This document shows, piece by piece, positions 5,049 through 28,712 of a DNA stretch of 64,000 nt; the stretch's first letter is position 1, and every line of letters starts with the position of its first letter. The notes below the pieces were generated by a model that did not search any database, was not told where the DNA came from, and worked only from the letters and a program-made list of their open reading frames with translations. The translations under genes were made by a program, and so were the position numbers. The DNA comes from an uncultured Psychroserpens sp. (GTDB taxonomy: Bacteria; Bacteroidota; Bacteroidia; Flavobacteriales; Flavobacteriaceae), in NCBI RefSeq assembly GCF_947492715.1, contig NZ_CANLNS010000010.1, positions 1 through 64,000 on the forward strand, given 5' to 3'.

Positions 5049-6434
5049 ATGGCAACAAAACAACAGTTTTTAAAACGACTCAACCAATTCCTTCTATGGT
5101 ATGTCATAGGCGTCATTATCTTAATCATTTTTGTAGTGATTGTCATTCTTATCAATGATATTGAACGTGGCAAACAGACCAGCATTTTTTTTCAAATACT
5201 AGGACGCTTTTTTAAATTCATACCCACATATTTTGCACTTGTTATTCCTTATCTTTTATTCCTCCTCATACGTTCTATAGTTAGAGATTTTAAAAAAAGT
5301 AGGTTCTTAGGGTTATTAAAAGGTGTAGGCTTAAAGATTGTACTTCCTGTTTTAATATTTTGGATGGGAAAGGCAGGCATTGATCACTACCGATTAACAG
5401 AAAACTTCGATTATACTTGGGATTACAGCATTGAAAACAAAGATTCTAGTGTTAGAAATTTATATGCTAAAGACAAGAAACAACGCGGATTTCATATTTT
5501 CGGAAGTTCAAATGATTCTATTTCGTTTGAAATTTTAAAAACTAACAATGTCGAATGGCTTACCTATGTTCCTTTTATATCTCAGGAACACTACGATAAA
5601 CCTACATTAAGAAAACGATCTGTGCTTGATGACTCTACGGGAAGGTACCAGCATTGGAAACACAGAAAGGAACGTGCCCAAGCCTACGGATTTAAAATCA
5701 TGCTTAAACCACATATCTGGCTTCAAAACAGAGAGAATGGTGCTTGGCGCTCAGATATTAATATGGCTACTGAAGACGAATGGGATCAATGGTTTGAAGA
5801 TTATAGTCAATATATATTGGACTATGCTGTTCTTGCTGAAACTTTAAACATTGAACTATTTTGCATTGGTACCGAATTACACAAAACTGTTTTAGAGCAG
5901 CCCGAACGCTGGGAAAGGCTTATTTCTGAAATTAGAAACGTCTACTCTGGAAAGCTAACATATGGTGCCAATTGGAATCAAGAGGTTGATGACATCCCTT
6001 TTTGGGATGCGCTAGATTTTATTGGCATTCAGGCGTATTATCCTATTGCAACAAATGAAAACCCTGAATTATTAGAGCTCGAAAACGGCTGGAATCAACA
6101 TATAGCTTATTTAGAGGAACTTCATAAAAAATATCAGAAGCCTATTCTATTTACCGAATTAGGCTATAAGTCAACCGCAGATGCTGGTATCAAACCTTGG
6201 GAATGGAATAACTTAAGCAATTCATTTCATAAAAAGATTTCCAAACGTACACAAGCCTTATGTTACCAGGCATTTTTTAATACAATATGGCAAAAGCCTT
6301 GGTTTGAAGGTGCGCATTTATGGGAATGGCAATCATCTAGAAATGATAGTGATGGTAACAATAATGCTTTTGTGGTACAAGGTAAACCAGCACTTAATGT
6401 CATTGCCAAAGGGTTTAAAAAAGTAACCGATTAA
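5049..6434 (+). CDS. Membrane-anchored glycoside hydrolase, GH113-like (beta-mannanase family)
   Basis: The 461-residue protein starts with about three hydrophobic segments (roughly residues 13-36, 55-77 and 90-108), followed by a TIM-barrel domain. The motifs fit GH113: FGSSNDS at the barrel start, IMLKPHIWL, the acid/base Glu in FCIGTELHKT (about residue 276), LTYGANWNQEV, the ALDFIGIQAYYPI strand, and the nucleophile Glu in PILFTELGYKS (about residue 370). Characterised GH113 members cut beta-1,4-mannan or gluco/galactomannan. The multi-helix anchor is unusual. No TonB/SusCD pair or other CAZyme lies nearby, so it is not a classical polysaccharide utilisation locus. Substrate is inference. 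Confidence 0.8.
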   Translation: MATKQQFLKRLNQFLLWYVIGVIILIIFVVIVILINDIERGKQTSIFFQILGRFFKFIPTYFALVIPYLLFLLIRSIVRDFKKSRFLGLLKGVGLKIVLPVLIFWMGKAGIDHYRLTENFDYTWDYSIENKDSSVRNLYAKDKKQRGFHIFGSSNDSISFEILKTNNVEWLTYVPFISQEHYDKPTLRKRSVLDDSTGRYQHWKHRKERAQAYGFKIMLKPHIWLQNRENGAWRSDINMATEDEWDQWFEDYSQYILDYAVLAETLNIELFCIGTELHKTVLEQPERWERLISEIRNVYSGKLTYGANWNQEVDDIPFWDALDFIGIQAYYPIATNENPELLELENGWNQHIAYLEELHKKYQKPILFTELGYKSTADAGIKPWEWNNLSNSFHKKISKRTQALCYQAFFNTIWQKPWFEGAHLWEWQSSRNDSDGNNNAFVVQGKPALNVIAKGFKKVTD

Positions 6435-19330: not shown

Positions 19331-20803
19331 TTATCTAGAATAATTTGGAGCTTCTTTGGTAATGGTTACATCATGAGGATGACTCTCATTAATACCAGAT
19401 GATGTGATTTTCACGAAGCGTCCTGTATCCTTTAAAGTCTCAATGTCTTTGGCTCCACAATAGCCCATTCCAGCTCTTAATCCACCAACAAATTGGTGAA
19501 TACTTTCAAATAATTCGCCTTTATATGGAACACGACCTACAATACCTTCAGGGACTAATTTTTTGATATCATCTTCAACATCCTGAAAATAACGATCCTT
19601 ACTTCCTTGTTTCATCGCTTCTACAGATCCCATTCCGCGATACGACTTAAATTTACGACCTTCATATATAATCGTTTCTCCAGGGCTTTCTTTTGTTCCT
19701 GCCAATAATGACCCAAGCATAACACTATCTGCTCCAGCTGCAATAGCTTTTGGAATATCTCCTGTATAGCGAATACCTCCATCTGCAATCACCGGAACAC
19801 CAGAGCCTTTAATCGCTGCTGCCACTTCTAGCACTGCCGAAAATTGTGGGAATCCAACACCTGCAACGACTCTAGTTGTACAAATAGATCCAGGACCAAT
19901 TCCAACTTTTACCGCATCTGCTCCAGCTTCAACTAAATATTTAGCTGCTTCTCCTGTTGCAATATTTCCAACGATAACTTCGAGATTTGGGAATTTTTCT
20001 TTGATCGACTTCAACACCATAACTACGCCTTTTGTATGTCCGTGAGCAGTATCTATAATCACAGCGTCCACTCCTGCTTTAACTAAGGCTGAAGCCCTTT
20101 CTACAGCATCACCTGTAACCCCAATTGCTGCAGCTACACGCAATCTTCCGTAAGTATCTTTATTAGCTATTGGTTTTTGAGTGACTTTGGTAATATCTCT
20201 AAACGTAATAAGTCCAACTAATTTATAGTCATCATCTACGATTAATAATTTTTCAATTTTATTCTTTTGAAGAATCTCTTCAGCATCCTTCAAAGATGTC
20301 CCAACAGCAGAAGTTACTAAGTTTTCACTCGTCATTACCTCAACAATTGGTCTTTCGTTAGCATGCTCAAAACGTAAATCACGATTGGTAACAATTCCTT
20401 TTAATGTGCCACTATCATCTACAATAGGAATACCTCCAATTTTGTGCTCGGCCATACTCTGTTTTGCATCTATAACTTTGGCCGTTAATGGTAAGGTTAC
20501 TGGATCGATAATCATACCGCTTTCGGCACGTTTTACGCGACGTACCTTTTTGGCTTGTTGCTCAATGGTCATGTTTTTATGAAGTACACCAATACCGCCT
20601 TCTTGCGCCATAGCAATAGCCATTTTACTTTCGGTAACCGTATCCATAGCAGCAGAAACCACAGGGATATTAATTGTAATGTTACGCGTGAATTTGGTTT
20701 GAATATTTACTTCTCTAGGTAAAACCTCTGAAAATGCTGGAACTAATAGTACGTCGTCATAAGTAAGACCTTCTCCAACAATTTTATTTTCGTGTGCTGT
20801 CAT
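19331..20803 (-). CDS. guaB: IMP dehydrogenase
   Basis: A 490-residue enzyme that oxidises IMP to XMP with NAD+, the first committed step of guanine nucleotide synthesis. The catalytic loop GPGSICTTR carries the active Cys, and the flap has [17 protein letters not shown]. Two CBS domains lie at about residues 95-210, as usual. Length is standard. Start ATG is preceded by a TATATTTG box 27 bases away. The gene is downstream of the small Cys-rich gene, but the box suggests independent transcription. Confidence 0.97.
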
Positions 20804-20829
20804 GATGCAATTACAGTTATAATTGCATG

Positions 20830-20837
20830 CAAATATA
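20830..20837 (-). promoter_or_regulatory. Promoter -7 box (TATATTTG) of guaB
   Basis: Exact TAnnTTTG match on the minus strand, 27 bases upstream of the guaB ATG. Confidence 0.5.
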
Positions 20838-20895
20838 CAACTTAAATAGAGAATTATATTAAGACTTTATTAAATCTTAATGAAAAGTACTTCAA

Positions 20896-21039
20896 TTATA
20901 TTCTAGGGCAACGTCTGCAGTTTGTTTTGCCCTTTTTCTTATACTTTTTACAGCATTTTGATTTCTTATTAACCTCACAATACATGATACATGAAGTGAT
21001 AATAATAGGAGAACTATCTATAGTTAATTCGTCTTGCAT
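20896..21039 (-). CDS. 47-residue Cys- and Lys-rich protein under an iron-type operator
   Basis: The frame starts at the ATG at 21037-21039 and encodes 47 residues, too short for many gene callers. The N-terminal third is MQDELTIDSSPIIITSC; the rest is basic and holds Cys in the patterns CIMYC, KSKCCKKYKKKGK and NCRRCPRI, six Cys in all. This looks like a small metal- or cluster-binding protein. No family is recognised. A TAATTTTG promoter box lies at 21065-21072, and a copy of the 23-bp iron-locus palindrome sits between that box and the start codon. The coding evidence is the regulated promoter plus the Cys pattern, not homology. Confidence 0.65.
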   Translation of the reverse strand: MQDELTIDSSPIIITSCIMYCEVNKKSKCCKKYKKKGKTNCRRCPRI

Positions 21040-21061
21040 TATTTTAATTTATTCTAAATAA
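21039..21061 (-). promoter_or_regulatory. Iron-locus operator palindrome, copy at Cys-rich gene
   Basis: On the minus strand the left half is TTATTTAGAAT and the right half ends TTAAAATAA. It agrees at 21 of 23 positions with the copies at 24069 and at 25427. It abuts the start codon and lies just downstream of the promoter box, so a bound protein would block transcription. Confidence 0.6.
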
Positions 21062-21064
21062 ATA

Positions 21065-21072
21065 CAAAATTA
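21065..21072 (-). promoter_or_regulatory. Promoter -7 box (TAATTTTG) of Cys-rich gene
   Basis: Exact TAnnTTTG match on the minus strand, 25 bases from the start codon and 3 bases upstream of the operator. Confidence 0.5.
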
Positions 21073-21100
21073 CAAAAAAAAGACGCCTAAAAAGGCATCT
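21073..21100 (-). terminator. Terminator after ferritin gene
   Basis: Minus-strand stem GATGCC / GGCGTC with a T-rich loop followed by eight T. It separates ferritin from the Cys-rich gene. Confidence 0.75.
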
Positions 21101-21128
21101 CATTTCATTAAGTTATTAACAGATAGTG

Positions 21129-21632
21129 CTATTCATTTTCTTGAGCAGCAGCGATGGCATTTATATCTCGATCAAACAGATAATGGCCAGATTTATCATT
21201 ACCAATAATATTAAGTTTATCGAGCAAAGTTCTTGCCATAGCCTCCTCTTCAAGCTGTTCAGTAACATACCATTGCATAAAATTATGAACGTTATAATCT
21301 TTATGCTGTAGACATTCGTAAATAACGTGATTGATTTGCTCGGTTACAAACATTTCACTCTTTAAAAATTGCTCGAAAAGTTCGTTGAGTCCATCATAAG
21401 ATGCTTTAGGAACATCCAGTGCCGGAATAATGACATTGCCACTTCTTTCATTGACAAATTTCACAAGTTTGGTCATGTGTACGCGTTCTTCTTCAGATTG
21501 ACTGTAAAAGAAATCTGCTACACCATTATAACCTTTAGCATCTGCCCAAGATGCCATTGCTAAATATTGCATTGAAGCCTGCGCTTCGTATTTAATTTGA
21601 TTGTTTAATAAGTTTTCTATCGTCGTATTCAT
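21129..21632 (-). CDS. ftnA: Non-haem ferritin
   Basis: A 167-residue four-helix-bundle ferritin that oxidises and stores iron. Ferroxidase ligands are visible: Glu in LLNNQIKYEAQAS, the EEERVHMTKL segment with Glu and His, and Glu/Gln in helices C and D (YVTEQLEEEAMAR). There is no haem-binding Met signature of bacterioferritin that I can identify. It lies 31 bases after the four-helix membrane protein gene in the same direction, so it may be the last gene of the porin-led transcript. A near-promoter box (TATCTTCG) just upstream may give it its own start. Confidence 0.93.
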   Translation of the reverse strand: MNTTIENLLNNQIKYEAQASMQYLAMASWADAKGYNGVADFFYSQSEEERVHMTKLVKFVNERSGNVIIPALDVPKASYDGLNELFEQFLKSEMFVTEQINHVIYECLQHKDYNVHNFMQWYVTEQLEEEAMARTLLDKLNIIGNDKSGHYLFDRDINAIAAAQENE

Positions 21633-21663
21633 TTTGAAAGCTATTTTTTACGAAGATAACTAT

Positions 21664-22167
21664 TTAAGTTTGAAGTACGGACTTAGATCTGGCCAACTGA
21701 TAAAGAATAATTAATACTGAAACGCTAAATGTTAATGTCATGAGGGTTCCAGAAATCATAACAATATATTTCATCCATATAATGTCTTTCCATAAAAAAT
21801 AAAGACCTCCAAATGTTAGCACGACAGAAATAAAAGGTTCCACAATTAAGAACATTTTTAATCGTTTTGACAATTTTGCAGTACTCAAAATGAGACCAAG
21901 TAAAAAGAAAATAATGGACATTGATAAAATATGGCCATGTACAAGTGTTAGCATTTGCTGTTCATTCTTTTTGAACTTCATCACAGTGGCATCATCATCA
22001 TCTTCATTACCCAAATACTGTTCTTCAATACCATTGGGATTTGCAGACGATGTTTCTCCAACAAACAACAATCCTGTATAGAAACCAATACTTAATACCA
22101 CAACAAACGCAGTAATAAGTAATTTAATTTCTTTTGGAAAAGTTGCAAGTATTCCGTTGAGTTGCAT
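21664..22167 (-). CDS. Four-helix membrane protein of unknown function
   Basis: The 167-residue protein has four hydrophobic helices (about residues 14-36, 75-97, 104-125 and 133-158). A 38-residue acidic loop follows helix 1 (ending GNEDDDDATVMKFKKNE). Helix 2 opens with TLVHGHILSMS, whose two His could bind a metal or haem; this is inference. I do not recognise the family. Its ATG overlaps the FMN-binding gene's stop by one base, so the two are translationally coupled and probably form a functional pair. Confidence 0.7.
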   Translation of the reverse strand: MQLNGILATFPKEIKLLITAFVVVLSIGFYTGLLFVGETSSANPNGIEEQYLGNEDDDDATVMKFKKNEQQMLTLVHGHILSMSIIFFLLGLILSTAKLSKRLKMFLIVEPFISVVLTFGGLYFLWKDIIWMKYIVMISGTLMTLTFSVSVLIILYQLARSKSVLQT

Positions 22168-22694
22168 TAAAGAATATTTTTAGATTGAAGAATATGTAAT
22201 GAGCGTAACAAATCGTTAATTGCAGATGTCATTGATCGAACAGAAATAGTGGCTCCAGAAATGGCTACAATATCTTGTTCATATTTTAATTCGTCTTTTG
22301 GCGTTTTACCAACAAATTGTCTTAGCCAACGTTTACTTCCAATCTCTCCGCCATATTCTTCTCTATAGATAAGAACTTTAGCTTTTTTTACTGTTAAATC
22401 AGGATCTAATAAAATAAGATAATCAAATTGAGCCGTTTTACTTGGCGCTTTTGCTACATAAGCATAGCCTACTATTTTAGCGTCTGATGTAATTGTAAAA
22501 AAATTGTCGTCTTCAAATTTCGACGGCAATTCTTTTGCAACCGCTTCATCAATTTGAAATGGTGTAAACTCAAACGTCTCAACATCATAGGTTGACTTTA
22601 TTTGTTTAAACACCTTTTTTTGAATTTTTTCAGATAATCCAAAAGACAAAAAAAGTGTTGCACATAGCACTATAAAAACCTGTCTCAATTTCAT
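22167..22694 (-). CDS. FMN-binding domain protein (RnfG/NqrC-like, extracytoplasmic)
   Basis: The 175-residue protein starts with a signal-type helix (residues 5-20) and contains an FMN_bind domain. The flavinylation motif SGATIS lies near residues 146-151; in RnfG and NqrC the Thr of this motif carries a covalent FMN attached by ApbE. The middle segment AFQFDYLILLDPD-like text (TAQFDYLILLDPDLTVKKAKVLIY) is also characteristic. It would work outside the cytoplasmic membrane as an electron carrier. Its partner is probably the coupled membrane protein. It follows the porin with a 110-base gap that holds a strong hairpin. Confidence 0.8.
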   Translation of the reverse strand: MKLRQVFIVLCATLFLSFGLSEKIQKKVFKQIKSTYDVETFEFTPFQIDEAVAKELPSKFEDDNFFTITSDAKIVGYAYVAKAPSKTAQFDYLILLDPDLTVKKAKVLIYREEYGGEIGSKRWLRQFVGKTPKDELKYEQDIVAISGATISVRSMTSAINDLLRSLHILQSKNIL

Positions 22695-22742
22695 TCTACA
22701 AAAGTATTAATTATATATTCTATTTAAGCAACTAAAATGCCA

Positions 22743-22780
22743 AATAGCTAATGCGAAAAAAGTTTTCGGCATTAGCTATT
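22743..22780 (-). other. Strong hairpin between porin and FMN-binding genes
   Basis: A perfect 12-bp stem (AATAGCTAATGC with GCATTAGCTATT) continues through an inner GAAAA/TTTTC pairing. There is no T tract after it, so it is not a typical terminator. It could stabilise the upstream porin mRNA or limit expression of the downstream genes. Confidence 0.65.
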
Positions 22781-22804
22781 AGACACTCAAATATTATGTT
22801 CTAT

Positions 22805-23989
22805 TTAGAACCATACTCCAATTCCGAAGTTAAGTCTGTTATCAACATCACTATTATCTAAAGCGTTACTTCTAAATTGGTAATCTCCTTTTAATACGAC
22901 TCCTGGTGCAATATGATAGCTTAAACCAGTTGTTATATCTGTTCTATTGTAAGCATCATTTCTTACCAAATCACCATCTGTATCAGCATGCGTATCATAG
23001 TTTTCATAACGAGCAAAAGCAAATAAACGCTGTGCCTTTGTTAAAGGCAATAAGTTATAGGCTACTTCTGCATAATATCCCATCAAAGCACTTCCTAAAT
23101 CTTTATTTGTTAAGTTGTTATAATCTTCAGTATCACTTAAAGACGCGTAGATAAATTGTCCTCTTGCCGCAAATCTCTTAAACGCATAACGTGCATCAAA
23201 ACCAACCATGCTTATTCCGATGTTGGTTCCGTCAATATCCTCTATGTCATCTTCAGCTTGTGTTTTCCCAAAGTATCCAGATAAACCAAGACGTAAACCA
23301 GGTAAACCATAGTATTCAATTTTAGTAGATAATGTTGGACTATCTACTGTAGATTTGATTGCTTTTTGACGACCTCCACGTAAACCATTACTTCCTTTTA
23401 AGAAGCCTGTTACTTCCCCATCACTATTAACTGTAGATTTAAATCCATTAAAAATATATGCCTGATAAGTTAAAGATTGCTCTGGTAAACGTCCAGTAAC
23501 ACCAACACCAATCTCTCTCCATGTTGTTGGAACAATAGCATTGTCTACAGCAGGGCGTTCAACACCGTTATATGTTGTAGGTTCATGATATTCATTAACA
23601 ATTCCCATTGGTACTAGCATTAAACCTCCTCGTAAACTAACATTATCACCAACAGCATAATTTACAAAGGCCTGCTCTATAAAAACTTCTTCAACATGCT
23701 CAAATTCTACTTCTGTAACAAACTGTGTTTTATCGTTAAATCTATATCCAAATAATAATACAAGGCGTTGTACATCTAATTCTCCATTATCGCCTTCTGG
23801 TTGATTGTATGTTATTTCACCATAGGCCCCCACAGTAACGGCTTTTCCGTAGTTACCAGATAAAATACGTTGTGCCGCATTTAATTGTTGTTGAGGGTTA
23901 AAAGTAATACTATCTTGCGACGTAGGTGTCACCTGAGCTATTGCAGTTGCACTGATTAAAATTGCAAAAAGGGTAAATAGTTTATTCAT
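22805..23989 (-). CDS. Outer-membrane porin
   Basis: A 394-residue outer-membrane beta-barrel protein with a signal peptide ending at AIAQ (residue 19). The mature part has alternating strands with aromatic girdles, VTVGAYGEITYNQPEGDNGELDVQRLVLLFGYRF-type text at the start and a terminal GIGVWF with the C-terminal Phe typical of barrels. It resembles phosphate-selective-type porins O/P by layout, but the transported solute is not predictable. Two operator palindromes and a clear promoter lie just upstream. It is the first gene of a run that leads to ferritin, which suggests a link to iron. Confidence 0.82.
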   Translation of the reverse strand: MNKLFTLFAILISATAIAQVTPTSQDSITFNPQQQLNAAQRILSGNYGKAVTVGAYGEITYNQPEGDNGELDVQRLVLLFGYRFNDKTQFVTEVEFEHVEEVFIEQAFVNYAVGDNVSLRGGLMLVPMGIVNEYHEPTTYNGVERPAVDNAIVPTTWREIGVGVTGRLPEQSLTYQAYIFNGFKSTVNSDGEVTGFLKGSNGLRGGRQKAIKSTVDSPTLSTKIEYYGLPGLRLGLSGYFGKTQAEDDIEDIDGTNIGISMVGFDARYAFKRFAARGQFIYASLSDTEDYNNLTNKDLGSALMGYYAEVAYNLLPLTKAQRLFAFARYENYDTHADTDGDLVRNDAYNRTDITTGLSYHIAPGVVLKGDYQFRSNALDNSDVDNRLNFGIGVWF

Positions 23990-23995
23990 TTGTTT

Positions 23996-24018
23996 TTATT
24001 TAGACTTGATATAAATAG
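23996..24018 (+). promoter_or_regulatory. Iron-locus operator palindrome, porin proximal copy
   Basis: Begins TTATTTAGACT and ends ATAAATAG; 18 of 23 positions agree with the distal copy. It lies 6 bases upstream of the porin ATG, downstream of the promoter. Confidence 0.5.
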
Positions 24019-24035
24019 TTATTGATTTCTGGATG

Positions 24036-24066
24036 CAAAAATAGAACAGATTTTTACTTACACAAA
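24036..24066 (-). promoter_or_regulatory. Porin promoter (TTTG, 19-base spacer, TATTTTTG)
   Basis: On the minus strand TTTG at 24063-24066 and TATTTTTG at 24036-24043 are separated by 19 bases, which matches the Bacteroidota primary-sigma promoter at both boxes. It is flanked on both sides by operator copies. Confidence 0.7.
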
Positions 24067-24068
24067 GT

Positions 24069-24091
24069 TTATTTAGATTAAATTTAAATAA
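24069..24091 (+). promoter_or_regulatory. Iron-locus operator palindrome, porin distal copy
   Basis: Half-sites are TTATTTAGATT and, on the opposite strand, TTATTTAAATT: 10 of 11 positions are symmetric. It abuts the -33 box of the porin promoter. It is 21/23 identical to the receptor copy at 25427. Confidence 0.65.
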
Positions 24092-24094
24092 ATT

Positions 24095-24451
24095 TTATTT
24101 TGATAAAATTTCATTTAAAATATTGTCAAAATCTAAATGAAAAAGTGTTCCTTTTAACAAATCGTGAATCCCTCTCAACTCTGTTTTATTTATTGCGAAA
24201 CTCACTTCGGGACACGGTGTTTGCAGAACAATTGGCCTACATAAGCCATTAGCCTCGCAACCAGAGTATTGCGAAAATTCTTTAAACGCACTATTAATAC
24301 AATGCGAAAAAGAAATGAGTTCTTCATACCTAAAGTATAAGCCCGTATTTCTAAAAACGAGTTGAATTTTATTAACATCCTTGGCAGCACATCGCTTCCA
24401 TTGAAAGGCAATTCCGAAATTGTTATAATAAATAGTATTTATATCTTCCAT
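24095..24451 (-). CDS. Cys-containing hypothetical protein downstream of DUF6607-like gene
   Basis: The 118-residue soluble protein has no signal peptide and five Cys, three of them clustered (YSGCEANGLCRPIV then TPCPEVSF). The N-terminus is MEDINTIYYNNFGIAFQWKRC. I believe it belongs to a small Bacteroidota-specific family found near DUF6607 and TonB receptor genes, but I cannot name it with confidence. It starts 33 bases after the DUF6607-like stop, so both are probably driven from the control region at 25376-25479. Confidence 0.6.
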   Translation of the reverse strand: MEDINTIYYNNFGIAFQWKRCAAKDVNKIQLVFRNTGLYFRYEELISFSHCINSAFKEFSQYSGCEANGLCRPIVLQTPCPEVSFAINKTELRGIHDLLKGTLFHLDFDNILNEILSK

Positions 24452-24484
24452 TGGTTATATGATATACTGTTTAAAGCCTGTTGG

Positions 24485-25375
24485 CTAGTTCAAAAATTTA
24501 TTAAGGATTGTTCTAATCTCGTCATTGGTGGCATCGTTATCTAAAGCAAATAAATATTGATATAATCGTTTATCATCAACTTTATTTTTTAGTTCAACTT
24601 TGCTGTTTTCAGCAAAAACTTTATTCCACTCTTGTCTCACTTTCTTCCAAAGCGCTGTATTTTCTTTCCACCAATCTCTGGCTATTTTACATTCATCGTC
24701 TGCTACTTTTTTATAGATATTATAACCTTTCTCTTGTACTAATAGTTCATCCTCTTTTCCTATTTCTCGAATAACCTTATCGTTATCTTGTTCATGCAAC
24801 CAGCCATAATTTGTAAGCTGTACATTATTCCCTCTAACCATGATATTATAATCATCTCGTTTTGAATATTCGCGTCTTGGAAGCGGAGCATCTATTTTAT
24901 TTTCCCAGTAATGTTTTCCATCTGCATGAATCCAAGTCGCGGAGCCAGAGTATCGAGGGCTATCATCTACTTGATACACCTTTTGTGTCCATTGTCCCTT
25001 AACTTGATCCTTAGAAAGATCTGTCATACTCCAGGTATTTTTAGATTCATAGTTGAAAACTCTTTTATTCTCGAACTCCCAATCTTGGCGCCAATGTTTA
25101 ACGACCATTGTATCATTAACAATGAGTAAATGCTGAATGCTAACTTTGTCATTTTTATCTTCTACTAACTCCGCCCATTCTAAGGCAGAAGCCCTATAAT
25201 CATAAGCCTTTTCATAGGCTATATCTGGAGAAAATGTCTCGGCGTACTTAAATTTTATTTCATAACAGCCGCACATTTCTTTAATGGCTTGCTTGTCTTT
25301 CTTCTTCTTGCTTTGAGCATTTGCTTGTAACGAAAATGCAATACTTAATAGTGTAAAAATGGCTAATTGTTTCAT
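24485..25375 (-). CDS. DUF6607-like secreted protein
   Basis: A 296-residue exported protein with a signal peptide ending at ANAQ (residue 20), then a Lys-rich stretch and a CGCYEIKFKYAETF motif. The middle contains several aromatic strands (HWRQDWEFENKRVFNYES, SATWIHADGKHYWENK) that suggest a lipocalin-like or beta-barrel-like fold. I recognise it as the DUF6607 type found beside iron or haem receptor genes in Bacteroidota; function unknown. The gene is divergent from the TonB receptor with 104 bases between them that hold operator copies. Confidence 0.7.
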   Translation of the reverse strand: MKQLAIFTLLSIAFSLQANAQSKKKKDKQAIKEMCGCYEIKFKYAETFSPDIAYEKAYDYRASALEWAELVEDKNDKVSIQHLLIVNDTMVVKHWRQDWEFENKRVFNYESKNTWSMTDLSKDQVKGQWTQKVYQVDDSPRYSGSATWIHADGKHYWENKIDAPLPRREYSKRDDYNIMVRGNNVQLTNYGWLHEQDNDKVIREIGKEDELLVQEKGYNIYKKVADDECKIARDWWKENTALWKKVRQEWNKVFAENSKVELKNKVDDKRLYQYLFALDNDATNDEIRTILNKFLN

Positions 25376-25426
25376 TTTTAAAGTGTTTGTTTTTGTGATT
25401 AAAAAAAAATTGAAATATTCTTATTC

Positions 25427-25449
25427 TTATTTAGATTGAATTAAAATAA
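25427..25449 (+). promoter_or_regulatory. Iron-locus operator palindrome, receptor upstream copy
   Basis: Begins TTATTTAGATT and ends TTAAAATAA; 21 of 23 positions match the copies at 21039 and 24069. It overlaps the -33 region of the receptor promoter and lies between two divergent genes, so it could control both. Confidence 0.65.
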
Positions 25450-25453
25450 CTTA

Positions 25454-25461
25454 TATATTTG
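25454..25461 (+). promoter_or_regulatory. Promoter -7 box (TATATTTG) of TonB receptor gene
   Basis: Exact TAnnTTTG match 18 bases before the ATG at 25480, 4 bases after the upstream operator copy. Confidence 0.6.
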
Positions 25462-25470
25462 CGGCAAATT

Positions 25471-25493
25471 TAATTAAGAATGATTCTAAATAA
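25471..25493 (-). promoter_or_regulatory. Possible second operator copy overlapping receptor start codon
   Basis: On the minus strand it begins TTATTTAGAAT, then diverges; 17 of 23 positions match the Cys-rich gene copy. It covers the start codon, as the Cys-rich copy nearly does, but the right half is weak. Confidence 0.35.
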
Positions 25494-27564
25494 AAAATAT
25501 TTCAGCATTTATTTTTCACTTTTTTTTATAACTCAAATGTTTTCTCAGGAAACAAAAGACACATCACAAGATTCACTGAAAGTAGAAACATTAAATGAAG
25601 TCTTCATTTCTGCTACTAGAACTCTTAGGCAATTATCATCACTCCCTCTACCCGCTCAAATTGTGAGCAAAAAGGACATAGAGCGATCTAATTCTATACG
25701 TTTAAATGACATTTTAAATGAGCAAACAGGTCTAATAACTGTTCCCGATTTTGGAGGTGGTGAAGGCATACAGTTACAAGGTTTAGACGCGCAATACACT
25801 TTAATACTAATAGATGGTGTCCCACTAATTGGTCGATCTGCAGGAACCTTAGATTTAAGCAGGATCTCAGTTGGTAACATCAAACAAATTGAGATCGTAA
25901 AAGGGGCATCATCTAGTTTGTATGGCAACGAAGCACTTGGAGGTGTCATCAATATCATTACCGAAAAGCCACGTACTGGTTTTAATGGTTCTATAAATAA
26001 CCGTTTCGGTAGCTTCAATACAAACGACTTAAGTACGTCTATAAATTATAAAAAGAACAAACTCGGTATTTCAGCTTTCATCAATAGATACAGCAGTGGT
26101 GGTTATGATCTCATTGAAAATGATAATCTCAATACTGTCGATCCTTTTCATAACTATACATTCAATACGAAATTTACTTATGACTTTTCTGACGCAATTA
26201 ACATGTTCGTTTCTGGCAGGTATTACACCCAAAATCAAGATGTTATTGCAACAGAAACTTTGAGAGGAAAAAGTACTATTAAAGAATGGAATACGCATCT
26301 TCAGTTAAATCAAACTTACAGTGAAAAATGGAACGGCTACTTGGAGTTCTATGCATCTCGTTATAAAGCCAATGAATATCTCAATGAAAATGATGGCTCT
26401 AGATTTAGCAATAGTTTCTTCAATCAATTAATGCTTAGACCTGAATATAGAATAGCATACAATATAAATGAAAATAATGGCTTTATTGCAGGTATAGGCA
26501 TAACACATGAAAGCTTAAACCGTACTGATTTTACAGAAGCACCTATTTTTAATTCTCCTTATGCTTATCTTCAGTATGATACCAACTTAACAAAACAATT
26601 AAACCTTCTTCTTGGCGCTCGATTTGACAATCACAACAAGTACAAATCACAATTTAGTCCGAAAGGAGCAATAAGGTATGTGTTTAACGAGAAACTTGCC
26701 TTTAAAGGTTCTATTGGGTATGGTTTTAAAGCACCCGATTTTAGGCAATTATATTTTGACTTTACCAATGCCACAGTAGGATATACCGTACTTGGTTATA
26801 ATGCTGTTCCAGCTGCCATAACTGCATTAGAAGCTCAAGGCCAAATTGCGAATATCATTGTTCCTATTTCCGAATTTAATAATCAAATCAACCCAGAAAA
26901 TTCCACGTCTATAAATATTGGAGTGGACTATAAAATTTCGGCCTCAATTACAAGCAATATAAATATGTTTAGGAATAACATTGATAACTTAATAGACACA
27001 CGAATTATTGCTAATAAAACTAACGGTCAAAATGTCTTTAGCTATTATAATATTAACGAGGTTTACACCCAGGGACTAGAGTTTAACACACATTGGAAAC
27101 CTAGTAATTTACTAAAAGTATCGGCAGGTTACCAATTGCTTTACGCTAAAGATATTGAAGCTGAAAAGGCCTTTAAAAATGGCGAGGTATTCGCTAGAGA
27201 TTCACCCACTTCCCCAGCCTTTCAATTAAACAAAAGTGACTATTTCGGTTTATATAATCGCTCTAGGCATATGGCTAATATCAAGCTATTTTATACCATT
27301 CCGAAATGGAATTTAGAATCTAATATCAGAACAACTTACAGAAGTAAGTATGGTTTGTTTGATACTAATGGAAATGGGTATTTAGACGATTACGACGACT
27401 TTGTCTCTGGGTATACCATTGTAGACCTAGCCTTTAACAAGACGTTCTATAAAAACTATAAACTAGGTCTTGGCATAGACAATCTACTAAACTTCACAGA
27501 CACTCAAAACATCAGCAATATTGCTGGTCGAATTATATACGGAAAACTTAATATTCAATTTTAA
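25480..27564 (+). CDS. TonB-dependent receptor, probable haem/iron uptake
   Basis: A 694-residue outer-membrane receptor. After the signal peptide (to about residue 22) a TonB-box region leads into the plug domain (NEVFISATRT to about residue 150, including SSLYGNEALGGVINIITEKP), followed by a 22-strand-type barrel ending KLNIQF. In the barrel, FKAPDFRQLYFDF (about 416) and NPENSTS (about 471) resemble the FRAP and NPNL boxes of haem receptors. There is no carboxypeptidase-like N-terminal domain, so it is not of the SusC type. The next gene is an HmuY-like haem lipoprotein, which supports haem as substrate. Confidence 0.9.
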   Translation: MILNKKYFSIYFSLFFITQMFSQETKDTSQDSLKVETLNEVFISATRTLRQLSSLPLPAQIVSKKDIERSNSIRLNDILNEQTGLITVPDFGGGEGIQLQGLDAQYTLILIDGVPLIGRSAGTLDLSRISVGNIKQIEIVKGASSSLYGNEALGGVINIITEKPRTGFNGSINNRFGSFNTNDLSTSINYKKNKLGISAFINRYSSGGYDLIENDNLNTVDPFHNYTFNTKFTYDFSDAINMFVSGRYYTQNQDVIATETLRGKSTIKEWNTHLQLNQTYSEKWNGYLEFYASRYKANEYLNENDGSRFSNSFFNQLMLRPEYRIAYNINENNGFIAGIGITHESLNRTDFTEAPIFNSPYAYLQYDTNLTKQLNLLLGARFDNHNKYKSQFSPKGAIRYVFNEKLAFKGSIGYGFKAPDFRQLYFDFTNATVGYTVLGYNAVPAAITALEAQGQIANIIVPISEFNNQINPENSTSINIGVDYKISASITSNINMFRNNIDNLIDTRIIANKTNGQNVFSYYNINEVYTQGLEFNTHWKPSNLLKVSAGYQLLYAKDIEAEKAFKNGEVFARDSPTSPAFQLNKSDYFGLYNRSRHMANIKLFYTIPKWNLESNIRTTYRSKYGLFDTNGNGYLDDYDDFVSGYTIVDLAFNKTFYKNYKLGLGIDNLLNFTDTQNISNIAGRIIYGKLNIQF

Positions 27565-27627
27565 TACATAAACAACATGAAAACCATGAACTATTCAAAC
27601 CAAAACCACCAAATGAACATCATTACT

Positions 27628-28260
27628 ATGAAAAACACATCTATTAGATTTTTAATCTTACTTGCCTTATGTATAGGCATGTCATCATGCAACAGCGATG
27701 ACGAAAACGGAATGCCTCTATTAGAAATAGAAGCTCAAACAATCACTAATTTACATGCGCCTCAATCTGGTGGACAAGGACAACCTATAACTGGAGAATT
27801 TACCAAATTTGATTTCTCAACAGGGCAAACAACAAATAGTAATACAAATTGGGATATAGCATTTAGAGGAACTACAATCATTGTAAATGGAGGTTCATCT
27901 TTAGGTACAACTGATGAGCCAACCAGAACAGGTAATGCCGCAGCCTATATTGTAGATGGGACTTTCCCTTCTATCACTGAAGTAGACACGAACTTGTTCA
28001 TTCAAGATTCTGAATCTGGTTACGCTATAGCTACAGGTAGCGAAAATGGTTGGTATTTTTATAATCCTCAAGCATTTTTAATTACACCAATTGCTGGAAA
28101 AATATTAGTCTTTAGAACGCGAGATGGAAAATATGCCAAAGTAGAAATATTAAGCTATTACAAAGATGCTCCCGCTAATCCAAATGCAATGACTGATGAA
28201 GGTAGATATTTTACGTTTAACTATGTATATCAACCAAATCTAAATACAACAACGTTCTAA
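27628..28260 (+). CDS. HmuY family haem-binding lipoprotein
   Basis: This is a lipoprotein of 210 residues: the signal MKNTSIRFLILL ends at the lipobox GMSSC. The mature part fits HmuY: TGEFTKFDFSTGQ, NTNWDIAFRGTTIIVNGG, and RDGKYAKVEILSYYKD. HmuY proteins capture haem at the cell surface and pass it to a TonB receptor of the HmuR type. In-frame ATGs exist at 27577 and 27613, but these would give an overlong signal n-region, so I chose 27628. The gene follows the receptor in the same direction and is followed by a DoxX-like gene after 2 bases. Confidence 0.85.
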   Translation: MKNTSIRFLILLALCIGMSSCNSDDENGMPLLEIEAQTITNLHAPQSGGQGQPITGEFTKFDFSTGQTTNSNTNWDIAFRGTTIIVNGGSSLGTTDEPTRTGNAAAYIVDGTFPSITEVDTNLFIQDSESGYAIATGSENGWYFYNPQAFLITPIAGKILVFRTRDGKYAKVEILSYYKDAPANPNAMTDEGRYFTFNYVYQPNLNTTTF

Positions 28261-28262
28261 TT

Positions 28263-28712
28263 ATGGCCAAATCAATTCGTATTTTATATATCATCTTACG
28301 TTTAGTTTTAGGTGGTTTTATGATCTATGGTGGTTTTAAAAAATTTGAAACCCCCAATCCACAACCTGTTGAAGTTGTTCAAAAAGCCCAAAAGTTTACA
28401 GTAGCAGAGCATCATAGTACATTACAAAAAGTACTTTATATAAATGGAGCCAAGCAAACCGGTTATTTTTGGCAAGTATTAGGTATATGCGAACTTCTCT
28501 TCGGATTCTTATTAATTGCGCAAGGAACTGGTTTTATAGGCGCTTTATTTTTATTACCAATTACATTACATATTTTCTTATTTCATCTGTTTTTAGAGTC
28601 AGATGACATTGGAGAGTTGTTACAAACAGGGTTTTTATTTTTAACAAACGTTGTTTTGGTACTCAAAGAAAAAGATAAATGGAAACATTTACTTTGGATA
28701 AAGCCCTTATAA
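28263..28712 (+). CDS. DoxX-like membrane protein
   Basis: A 149-residue protein with four hydrophobic helices (about residues 7-25, 66-86, 92-112 and 118-133). The motif LGGFMIYGGFKKF at the first helix and LGICELLFGFLLI match the DoxX family. Function of DoxX proteins is varied and mostly unknown. It is the last gene of the receptor operon (2 bases after HmuY) and is followed by a shared terminator, so it is expected to be expressed with haem uptake. Confidence 0.78.
   Translation: MAKSIRILYIILRLVLGGFMIYGGFKKFETPNPQPVEVVQKAQKFTVAEHHSTLQKVLYINGAKQTGYFWQVLGICELLFGFLLIAQGTGFIGALFLLPITLHIFLFHLFLESDDIGELLQTGFLFLTNVVLVLKEKDKWKHLLWIKPL

Follow-up and report, generated by a model that had tools for sequence, protein, structure and literature searches.

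Background and the locus

The ferric uptake regulator (Fur) of Riemerella anatipestifer has a predicted box, ATTTAGAATTATTCTAAAT, and shifts four promoters in gels, that of hmuR included (Guo et al. 2017, PMC5609570). Table 5 of that paper has 11 rows; the entry for hmuR is the reverse complement of that for a hypothetical gene and has the same start position, and so these two genes share a box. Its described targets are hmuR, the hypothetical gene with the same box, rhuB and feoAB (PMC5609570; PMC10434265; PMC10986502). A promoter with a Fur box is also shared by rhuH and rhuR-rhuA, and rhuH is up in a fur mutant, in a Fur-box mutant and in low iron (PMC11967795). In Flavobacterium psychrophilum hfpR and hfpY are iron-repressed and a single Fur gene, which could not be deleted in the attempts made, lies upstream of purA (PMC9331221), and the TAnnTTTG promoter element of this species occupies −12 to −5 (PMC9723704). 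The Fur homologue of Porphyromonas gingivalis binds the hmu promoter and not the Escherichia coli box (PMC6613475). All papers cited in this text, apart from PMC9331221, are cited from excerpts. The stretch considered here, referred to as the window, is the 64,000 nucleotides at positions 1 to 64,000 of contig NZ_CANLNS010000010.1 (C10:1-64000) in the 4.2 Mb genome of an uncultured Psychroserpens sp. (34% GC in the window), and it carries five copies of a 23-bp palindrome at an iron/haem locus. Read from their sequence and by analogy with the systems above, these palindromes are very probably Fur operators repressing haem- and iron-uptake genes. The site type itself is already published for R. 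anatipestifer, a relative; the sites of this locus, their layout and conservation, their target genes and the presence of Fur are observed here.

The palindromes and their distribution

The boxes, given with scores from the weight matrix described below, and the −7 promoter elements beside them are as follows, transcription start sites (TSS) being predictions made by placing the TAnnTTTG element at −12 to −5.

21039..21061, minus strand: candidate Fur box over the predicted TSS of a tiny Cys-rich gene, centre near +10; 25.3 bits
21065..21072, minus strand: −7 element TAATTTTG of the tiny gene, a TAnnTTTG match
23996..24018, plus strand: candidate Fur box downstream of the predicted porin TSS, centre near +24; 73 bp from its partner; 21.8 bits
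24036..24043, minus strand: −7 element TATTTTTG of the porin promoter, with a box on either side
24069..24091, plus strand: candidate Fur box upstream of the porin promoter, centre near −49; 28.8 bits
25427..25449, plus strand: candidate Fur box 1 in the promoter region between rhuH and rhuR, centre near −28 from the predicted receptor TSS; 25.7 bits
25454..25461, plus strand: −7 element TATATTTG in the promoter of the rhuR-like TonB receptor, a TAnnTTTG match
25465..25472, minus strand: −7 element TAAATTTG in the promoter of the divergent rhuH, touching box 2
25471..25493, minus strand: candidate Fur box 2, at a distance of 44 bp from box 1 and overlapping the ATG with which the receptor starts at 25480; 23.1 bits

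An earlier note on this DNA, made from its letters alone, had singled out these five 23-mers and placed them by TAnnTTTG promoters; every coordinate and strand is reproduced, and the four elements listed bear out the promoters. The copies at 21039, 24069 and 25427 are identical at 21 of 23 positions in every pair, as the note had it. Its 18 of 23 for the copy at 23996 holds for the best of three comparisons only, the agreement with the three best copies being 17, 18 and 17, and the copy at 25471, which it called weaker, agrees with them at 17, 17 and 16. Self-palindromy out of 23 is 16 at 21039, 20 at 24069, 18 at 25427, 14 at 23996 and 18 at 25471, the halves mostly being one strong and one weaker. 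At 20 or more of 23 matches to TTATTTAGAWTNAWTYTAAATAA the window has eight strand-hits, in four places, against 0.16 expected from 100 Markov simulations of it, and chance is therefore no explanation for the 23-mers. The weight matrix is symmetric and derives from 85 sites at 68 loci of 13 relatives (those with listed places, out of 149 genomes searched), own-genome loci being excluded; the next-best score in the window after the five boxes is 5.1 bits and the top of 60 simulated windows is 16.9. A search of Rfam with 20800-25600 gave 0 matches.

Genome-wide, sites with at most two mismatches stand at six places, four of them in the window locus. The fifth lies directly before feoA (2 bp as called), with feoB next and the box centre near +8 from the predicted TSS, and the sixth is where the gene of an AraC-type regulator, divergent from hemA, begins; the feoA, feoB, AraC-type and hemA names in this genome were given by eye. 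At three mismatches there are 21 strand-hits against 6 for a reversed-pattern control, so these hits are partly chance, and the loci L009, L012 and L013 reach only 9-12 bits. Also in this genome is a 19.8-bit box (L015, C9:114932-114954) inside a gene resembling a cytochrome-oxidase subunit.

Across the family (149 genomes, very probably Flavobacteriaceae) sites with at most two mismatches occur in 145, and the reversed pattern in 12. Three of the four genomes without such a site have weaker ones (G135, 19.2 and 16.4 bits; G136, 17.8; G081, 14.2). Phylum-wide, sites are present in 108 of 198 genomes, and some families have none. A contig scan for exact matches, with genes as crude calls, gave at least 118 loci; among the matches listed, the best-scoring site lies outside open reading frames in 112, and in 100 of those 112 it is at most 250 bp before a gene, which agrees with what the earlier note would expect of hits that are not random with respect to genes. 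Behind the listed sites are 122 genes (both genes being counted where a site lies between two divergent ones), 119 of them of at least 67 amino acids; the Pfam scan covered 118 of these and excluded one whose contig is rich in unread bases. The matches listed include the TonB plug in 22, DUF4856 in 12, FeoA in 5, the SufBD core in 5, imelysin in 4, Fe-S biosynthesis in 2, complex I chain 3 (nuoA) in 2 and HmuY in 2; unrelated families appear as well, for instance with three matches to sigma-70 region 4 and two to peptide release factor, the counts being without a random-gene control. Sites stand at promoters of iron-acquisition genes both in this genome and in relatives, as expected of a Fur regulon.

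A further survey was not selected by the motif. The gene divergent from the TonB receptor belongs to Pfam DUF6607, and such a gene is present in 20 of 60 family genomes searched, this one included throughout the counts. A site of at least 19.8 bits lies in the 350 bp before it in 19 of the 20, which answers the note's call for conservation in relatives, and G039 has no site in that interval. Two boxes 39-48 bp apart, the weaker of at least 14.6 bits, precede the gene in 14 of the 20.

AT-rich chance, or shared ancestry with no function behind it, has practically no weight as the reason for the likeness of the sites. The window is AT-rich, and the bare 9-mer of the motif occurs elsewhere too: inside genes at 6107, 11231 and 62896, as the note had warned, and at two further places, 44398 and 50917. 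This reading is contradicted by the simulations together with the gap in matrix score (21.8 against 5.1 bits), by the 12 family genomes with the reversed pattern against 145 with the true one, and by the placement of sites before genes at 100 of the at least 118 loci (matches listed).

Two of the sites lie by regulator genes. In this genome the hemA site (C1:965880-965902; L007, L048) is a candidate Fur box between the divergent AraC-type regulator and hemA, a pair that flanks a box also at the hemA loci of 10 relatives, all motif-selected; Fur may act on haem synthesis through the AraC-type regulator. In Bacteroidetes bacterium 4572_117 (L128) a perfect box lies 72 bp before a fur gene, possibly for fur autoregulation.

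Fur as the probable regulator

Two genes of the Fur family and one of the DtxR family are present in the genome. The main Fur (C2:37336-37698) scores 94.3 bits against a cut-off of 23.1, and its gene sits between purA and a relA/spoT-like gene; the second Fur-family gene is at C4:319007. Fur was detected in 147 of the 149 family genomes, alongside sites in 145, and since the two without a match (G103 and G140) also have no purA match, their assemblies probably lack the region. The recognition helix is nearly invariant, RVS[RK]xTLYNT in all 21 aligned Fur proteins from 21 genomes. The core of the 23-mer is the R. anatipestifer Fur box itself. Binding by Fur, its iron dependence and repression would be as in the orthologues; metal-dependent binding, and derepression when iron is low or Fur absent, are documented for R. 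anatipestifer genes.

The earlier note had proposed one iron- or haem-responsive repressor of Fur or DtxR type, and of these two it is Fur to which the published core and the DtxR-free genomes that keep the site now point. About 3 kb separate the genome's one DtxR-family gene from the feoA site, DtxR is present in 136 of the 149 family genomes, and this DtxR/MntR-type regulator could in principle bind the sites. It is nonetheless very unlikely to do so: 11 of the 13 family genomes without a DtxR match keep sites with at most two mismatches, which disfavours DtxR, and the DtxR-free single-contig genome G123 has 26.0 bits at feoA and 29.9 at hemA. The DtxR gene moreover adjoins an apparent metal ABC importer (by eye), suggesting another task, and the published Fur box fits the sites instead. 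DtxR as the binder was rejected on this co-occurrence, the sites showing no dependence on its presence. At L047:842-5075 the single DtxR gene adjoins an apparent Mn/Zn ABC importer, and so may be an MntR.

A slimmer chance still is that the binder is another protein of the Fur family, resembling Zur or PerR, or an Irr-like sensor of haem. For it are the second Fur-family gene and the hemA gene that adjoins one target site; but among the genes that follow the sites are ones for iron, haem, Fe-S and respiration, sites are still present in many family genomes (of the 149) with just one Fur-family match, and the main Fur scores only 42.8 and 41.1 bits against the Irr models, whose cut-offs are 150 and 170. 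Zur and Irr are weak candidates, Irr for its missed cut-offs. The core of the site is presumably also that of the rhizobial Irr ICE box. The letters are not in the passages of PMC7762939 that describe ICE boxes, and literature on the Irr box was otherwise mostly unrelated.

Several observations weigh against Fur as the repressor at these palindromes. The matrix was trained on sites picked by a window-derived pattern at no more than two mismatches, hence by likeness to the motif. The main Fur falls below all NCBIfam cut-offs for Fur, PerR and Irr, so its metal is not readable from those models. In G023, a near-complete genome of 2.6 Mb in a single contig with an intact Fur, there is no good box before feoA, hemA or nqrA, which makes this genome a natural case for testing whether operators were lost or have drifted. 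Lastly, PMC7976709 gives an E. coli-type consensus for R. anatipestifer promoters, in conflict with PMC5609570. In the literature the motif as an IUPAC string found no match, and TTTAGAAT with TTCTAAA and Fur led to PMC5609570, relevant by title; among the open-licence titles listed no family-wide Fur regulon for Flavobacterium or Bacteroidetes was found, which is not proof of absence.

Box layout and the genes served

The genes of the locus are these.

20896..21039, minus strand: tiny Cys-rich protein of 47 amino acids, core CCKKYKK...CxxCP, with relatives elsewhere that also have a Fur box
22805..23989, minus strand: porin-like outer-membrane gene, 394 amino acids, so named in the earlier note
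24095..24451, minus strand: DUF6686 gene, 24.1 bits (cut-off 23.9), just downstream of rhuH on the same strand
24485..25375, minus strand: rhuH-type haemophore gene, Pfam DUF6607 (E 2.9e-106), 296 amino acids
25480..27564, plus strand: TonB-dependent receptor, plug and beta-barrel, of rhuR/hmuR/hfpR type by position
27577..28260, plus strand: HmuY-type haem-binding protein, PF14064 (3.1e-11), downstream of the receptor
28263..28712, plus strand: DoxX-like membrane protein, PF07681 (2.7e-5), last gene of the putative operon

In sequence the DUF6607 product is homologous to the haemophore RhuH: it matches PDB 8XJC at E 9.7e-85 and 287.5 bits over residues 14-294, and the RhuH haem ligand His96 is kept, an H standing at chain position 96 when counted in the alignment. 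The DUF6686 gene is probably its operon partner; among the matches listed, DUF6686-like genes, recognised by eye, have a site of their own at L151, L152, L186, L209 and L214. The receptor is under the cut-off for each of the 25 NCBIfam models listed. The HmuY-type gene that follows it accords with the earlier note, which had counted HmuY among the genes served. Both −7 elements of the divergent promoter sit between the centres of the two boxes.

The site at 21039 fronts the tiny Cys-rich gene. Its protein, a relative (L199) and a second group of 52-57 amino acids, lengths being after trimming by eye, have in common the core CCKK-x-KK...C-x-x-CP; the second group has eight fetched loci (L052, L054, L066, L071, L076, L083, L088 and L113), five of which adjoin a tex-like gene, and all ten tiny genes have a box of at least 21/23 within about 60 bp. 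The family meets no Pfam or NCBIfam family, and at E up to 1 Pfam gives chance-level hits in two of the ten members, one each or fewer, the best at 0.019. The family may have a role in iron or Fe-S handling.

At the porin promoter the two boxes stand on either side of the −7 element. The porin-like gene has no Pfam family above cut-off; of four fetched loci whose genes have its N-terminal motif, three (L049, L098, L104) have box pairs and one (L055) a single box at threshold. Behind this double box, at 21129-23989 on the minus strand, porin, an FMN-binding protein, a small membrane protein and ferritin run in one direction. The matrix scan finds no box before ferritin in the window, and the gene may be read through from the porin promoter. 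Ferritin, which the earlier note had thought a possible target, was rejected as one for the 21039 box, which lies past the ferritin stop, a terminator-like hairpin and T run (21101-21080, minus strand) intervening; the stretch has 3 such hairpins against 0.8 expected.

Box pairs recur beyond the window. Among 35 pairs less than 150 bp apart, at loci that are mostly motif-selected, 16 are spaced at 43-48 bp, 9 at 72-74 bp and 10 at other spacings (34 to 83). With boxes on and around the −7 elements and TSS, the positions fit a repressor. The palindromes would be Fur boxes, TTATTTAGAWTNAWTCTAAATAA, and operators of the purA-linked Fur; with iron available, iron-loaded Fur dimers on and beside the −7 elements and TSS would block RNA polymerase, keeping RhuH, the TonB receptor with HmuY, the porin and the tiny Cys-rich protein off in iron-replete cells. 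As iron falls Fur would leave, and RhuH, receptor and HmuY, porin and tiny protein would be made.

Boxes upstream of respiratory genes

Three further boxes of this genome, found at three mismatches, lie at another place relative to their promoters.

C3:35099-35121 (L011): Fur-like box before nqrA, centre 54 bp from the −7 element; 19.0 bits
C9:68583-68605 (L014): Fur-like box before actA, centre 56 bp from the −7 element; 18.8 bits
C1:1304925-1304947 (L010): Fur-like box before sdhC, centre 54 bp from the −7 element; 17.7 bits

By eye, actA encodes a cytochrome c protein and heads an alternative complex III operon. In a survey of 45 family genomes that were not motif-selected, 21, this one included, have an nqrA box of at least 14 bits. 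The distance from its centre to the −7 element is 44 bp in one, 53-57 in 15 and 64-67 in five, which puts box centres near −56, −66 and −77; the phase concentration at 10.5 bp is R = 0.82 (n=21), with a p of 8e-7 that ignores relatedness and is not to be taken at face value. The corresponding distance for actA is 55-56 bp in this genome and three motif-selected relatives, and for nuoA 75 and 76 bp at two motif-selected Flavobacterium loci. Steps of about one helical turn are as for activators touching RNA polymerase, and in Neisseria Fur does activate from upstream, nuoA included (review PMC3788343).

Flavobacterial Fur might then work in two modes set by the place of the box. Boxes at the −7 element or TSS would repress uptake genes; upstream boxes, placed in steps of about one helical turn (centre to −7 element 44, 53-57, 64-67 and 75-76 bp), would bring Fur into contact with RNA polymerase on one DNA face and so activate the iron-rich respiratory operons nqr, act, sdh and nuo. 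This is put forward tentatively, from spacing, as a proposal somewhat likelier to fail than to hold. If it is true, iron shortage would lower nqr, act, sdh and nuo directly, without a small RNA.

Against activation, 24 of the 45 genomes have no nqrA box, and the space before nqrA is common to a divergent gene that could be the box's client; a −7 match in range for the divergent gene is present in one of four relatives tabulated and absent from this genome. The R. anatipestifer data also bear on it (PMC5609570 Table 2). In low iron the quinone-binding cytochrome c oxidoreductase subunit changes by −1.01 and succinate dehydrogenase subunits by −1.01 to −1.46 in the wild type, and by −3.47 and −2.47 to −2.79 in the fur mutant, the oxidoreductase standing at −2.23 in fur mutant versus wild type in low iron, with no value listed for that comparison in the presence of iron. 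The drop is larger in the mutant, so iron control there can do without Fur.

Comparison with known systems

Iron and haem genes throughout a large family can now be given a probable regulator and its operator, of a site type tabulated for 11 genes in one R. anatipestifer paper, and the divergent DUF6607 gene can be named as a known haemophore. New are the tiny Cys-rich gene with its box, from a family that Pfam and NCBIfam leave without a name, the two box-pair spacings and the boxes upstream of respiratory genes. It becomes testable whether in Bacteroidota Fur is a direct activator of NQR, complex I, succinate dehydrogenase and the act operon, which is alternative complex III-like. Leads worth following are the pairing of boxes, their spread through the family and, most of all, the phasing of the upstream ones.

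The window's boxes resemble the R. anatipestifer Fur box in their core, ATTTAGAAT-N-ATTCTAAAT (PMC5609570; PMC10434265; PMC10986502). In contrast to the Fur regulon described in the excerpts for that species, the window promoters are enclosed by two boxes, and sites are added at the porin, the tiny Cys-rich gene, araC/hemA, nqrA, actA and sdhC, names that the 11 rows of Table 5 do not have. As at R. anatipestifer rhuH/rhuR-rhuA (PMC11967795), a RhuH homologue with His96 kept is divergent from a TonB receptor at a shared promoter with a Fur box; there the excerpts name one box, whereas the window has two, 44 bp apart and one of them over the receptor start codon, and unlike in rhuR-rhuA the window receptor is followed by a HmuY-family gene. 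In that respect the locus is like F. psychrophilum hfpR-1813-hfpY (PMC9331221), where a receptor goes with a HmuY-type haemophore and the Fur gene is next to purA; that operon is iron-repressed, the main text does not use the term "Fur box", and its gene order differs from that of the window. The upstream boxes compare with the Fur-activated genes of Neisseria (PMC3788343), where at nuoA, as in the relatives here, the box is upstream of RNA polymerase; according to the excerpts it lies about 100 bp upstream in Neisseria, whereas the centres here would lie near −56, −66, −77 or −87.

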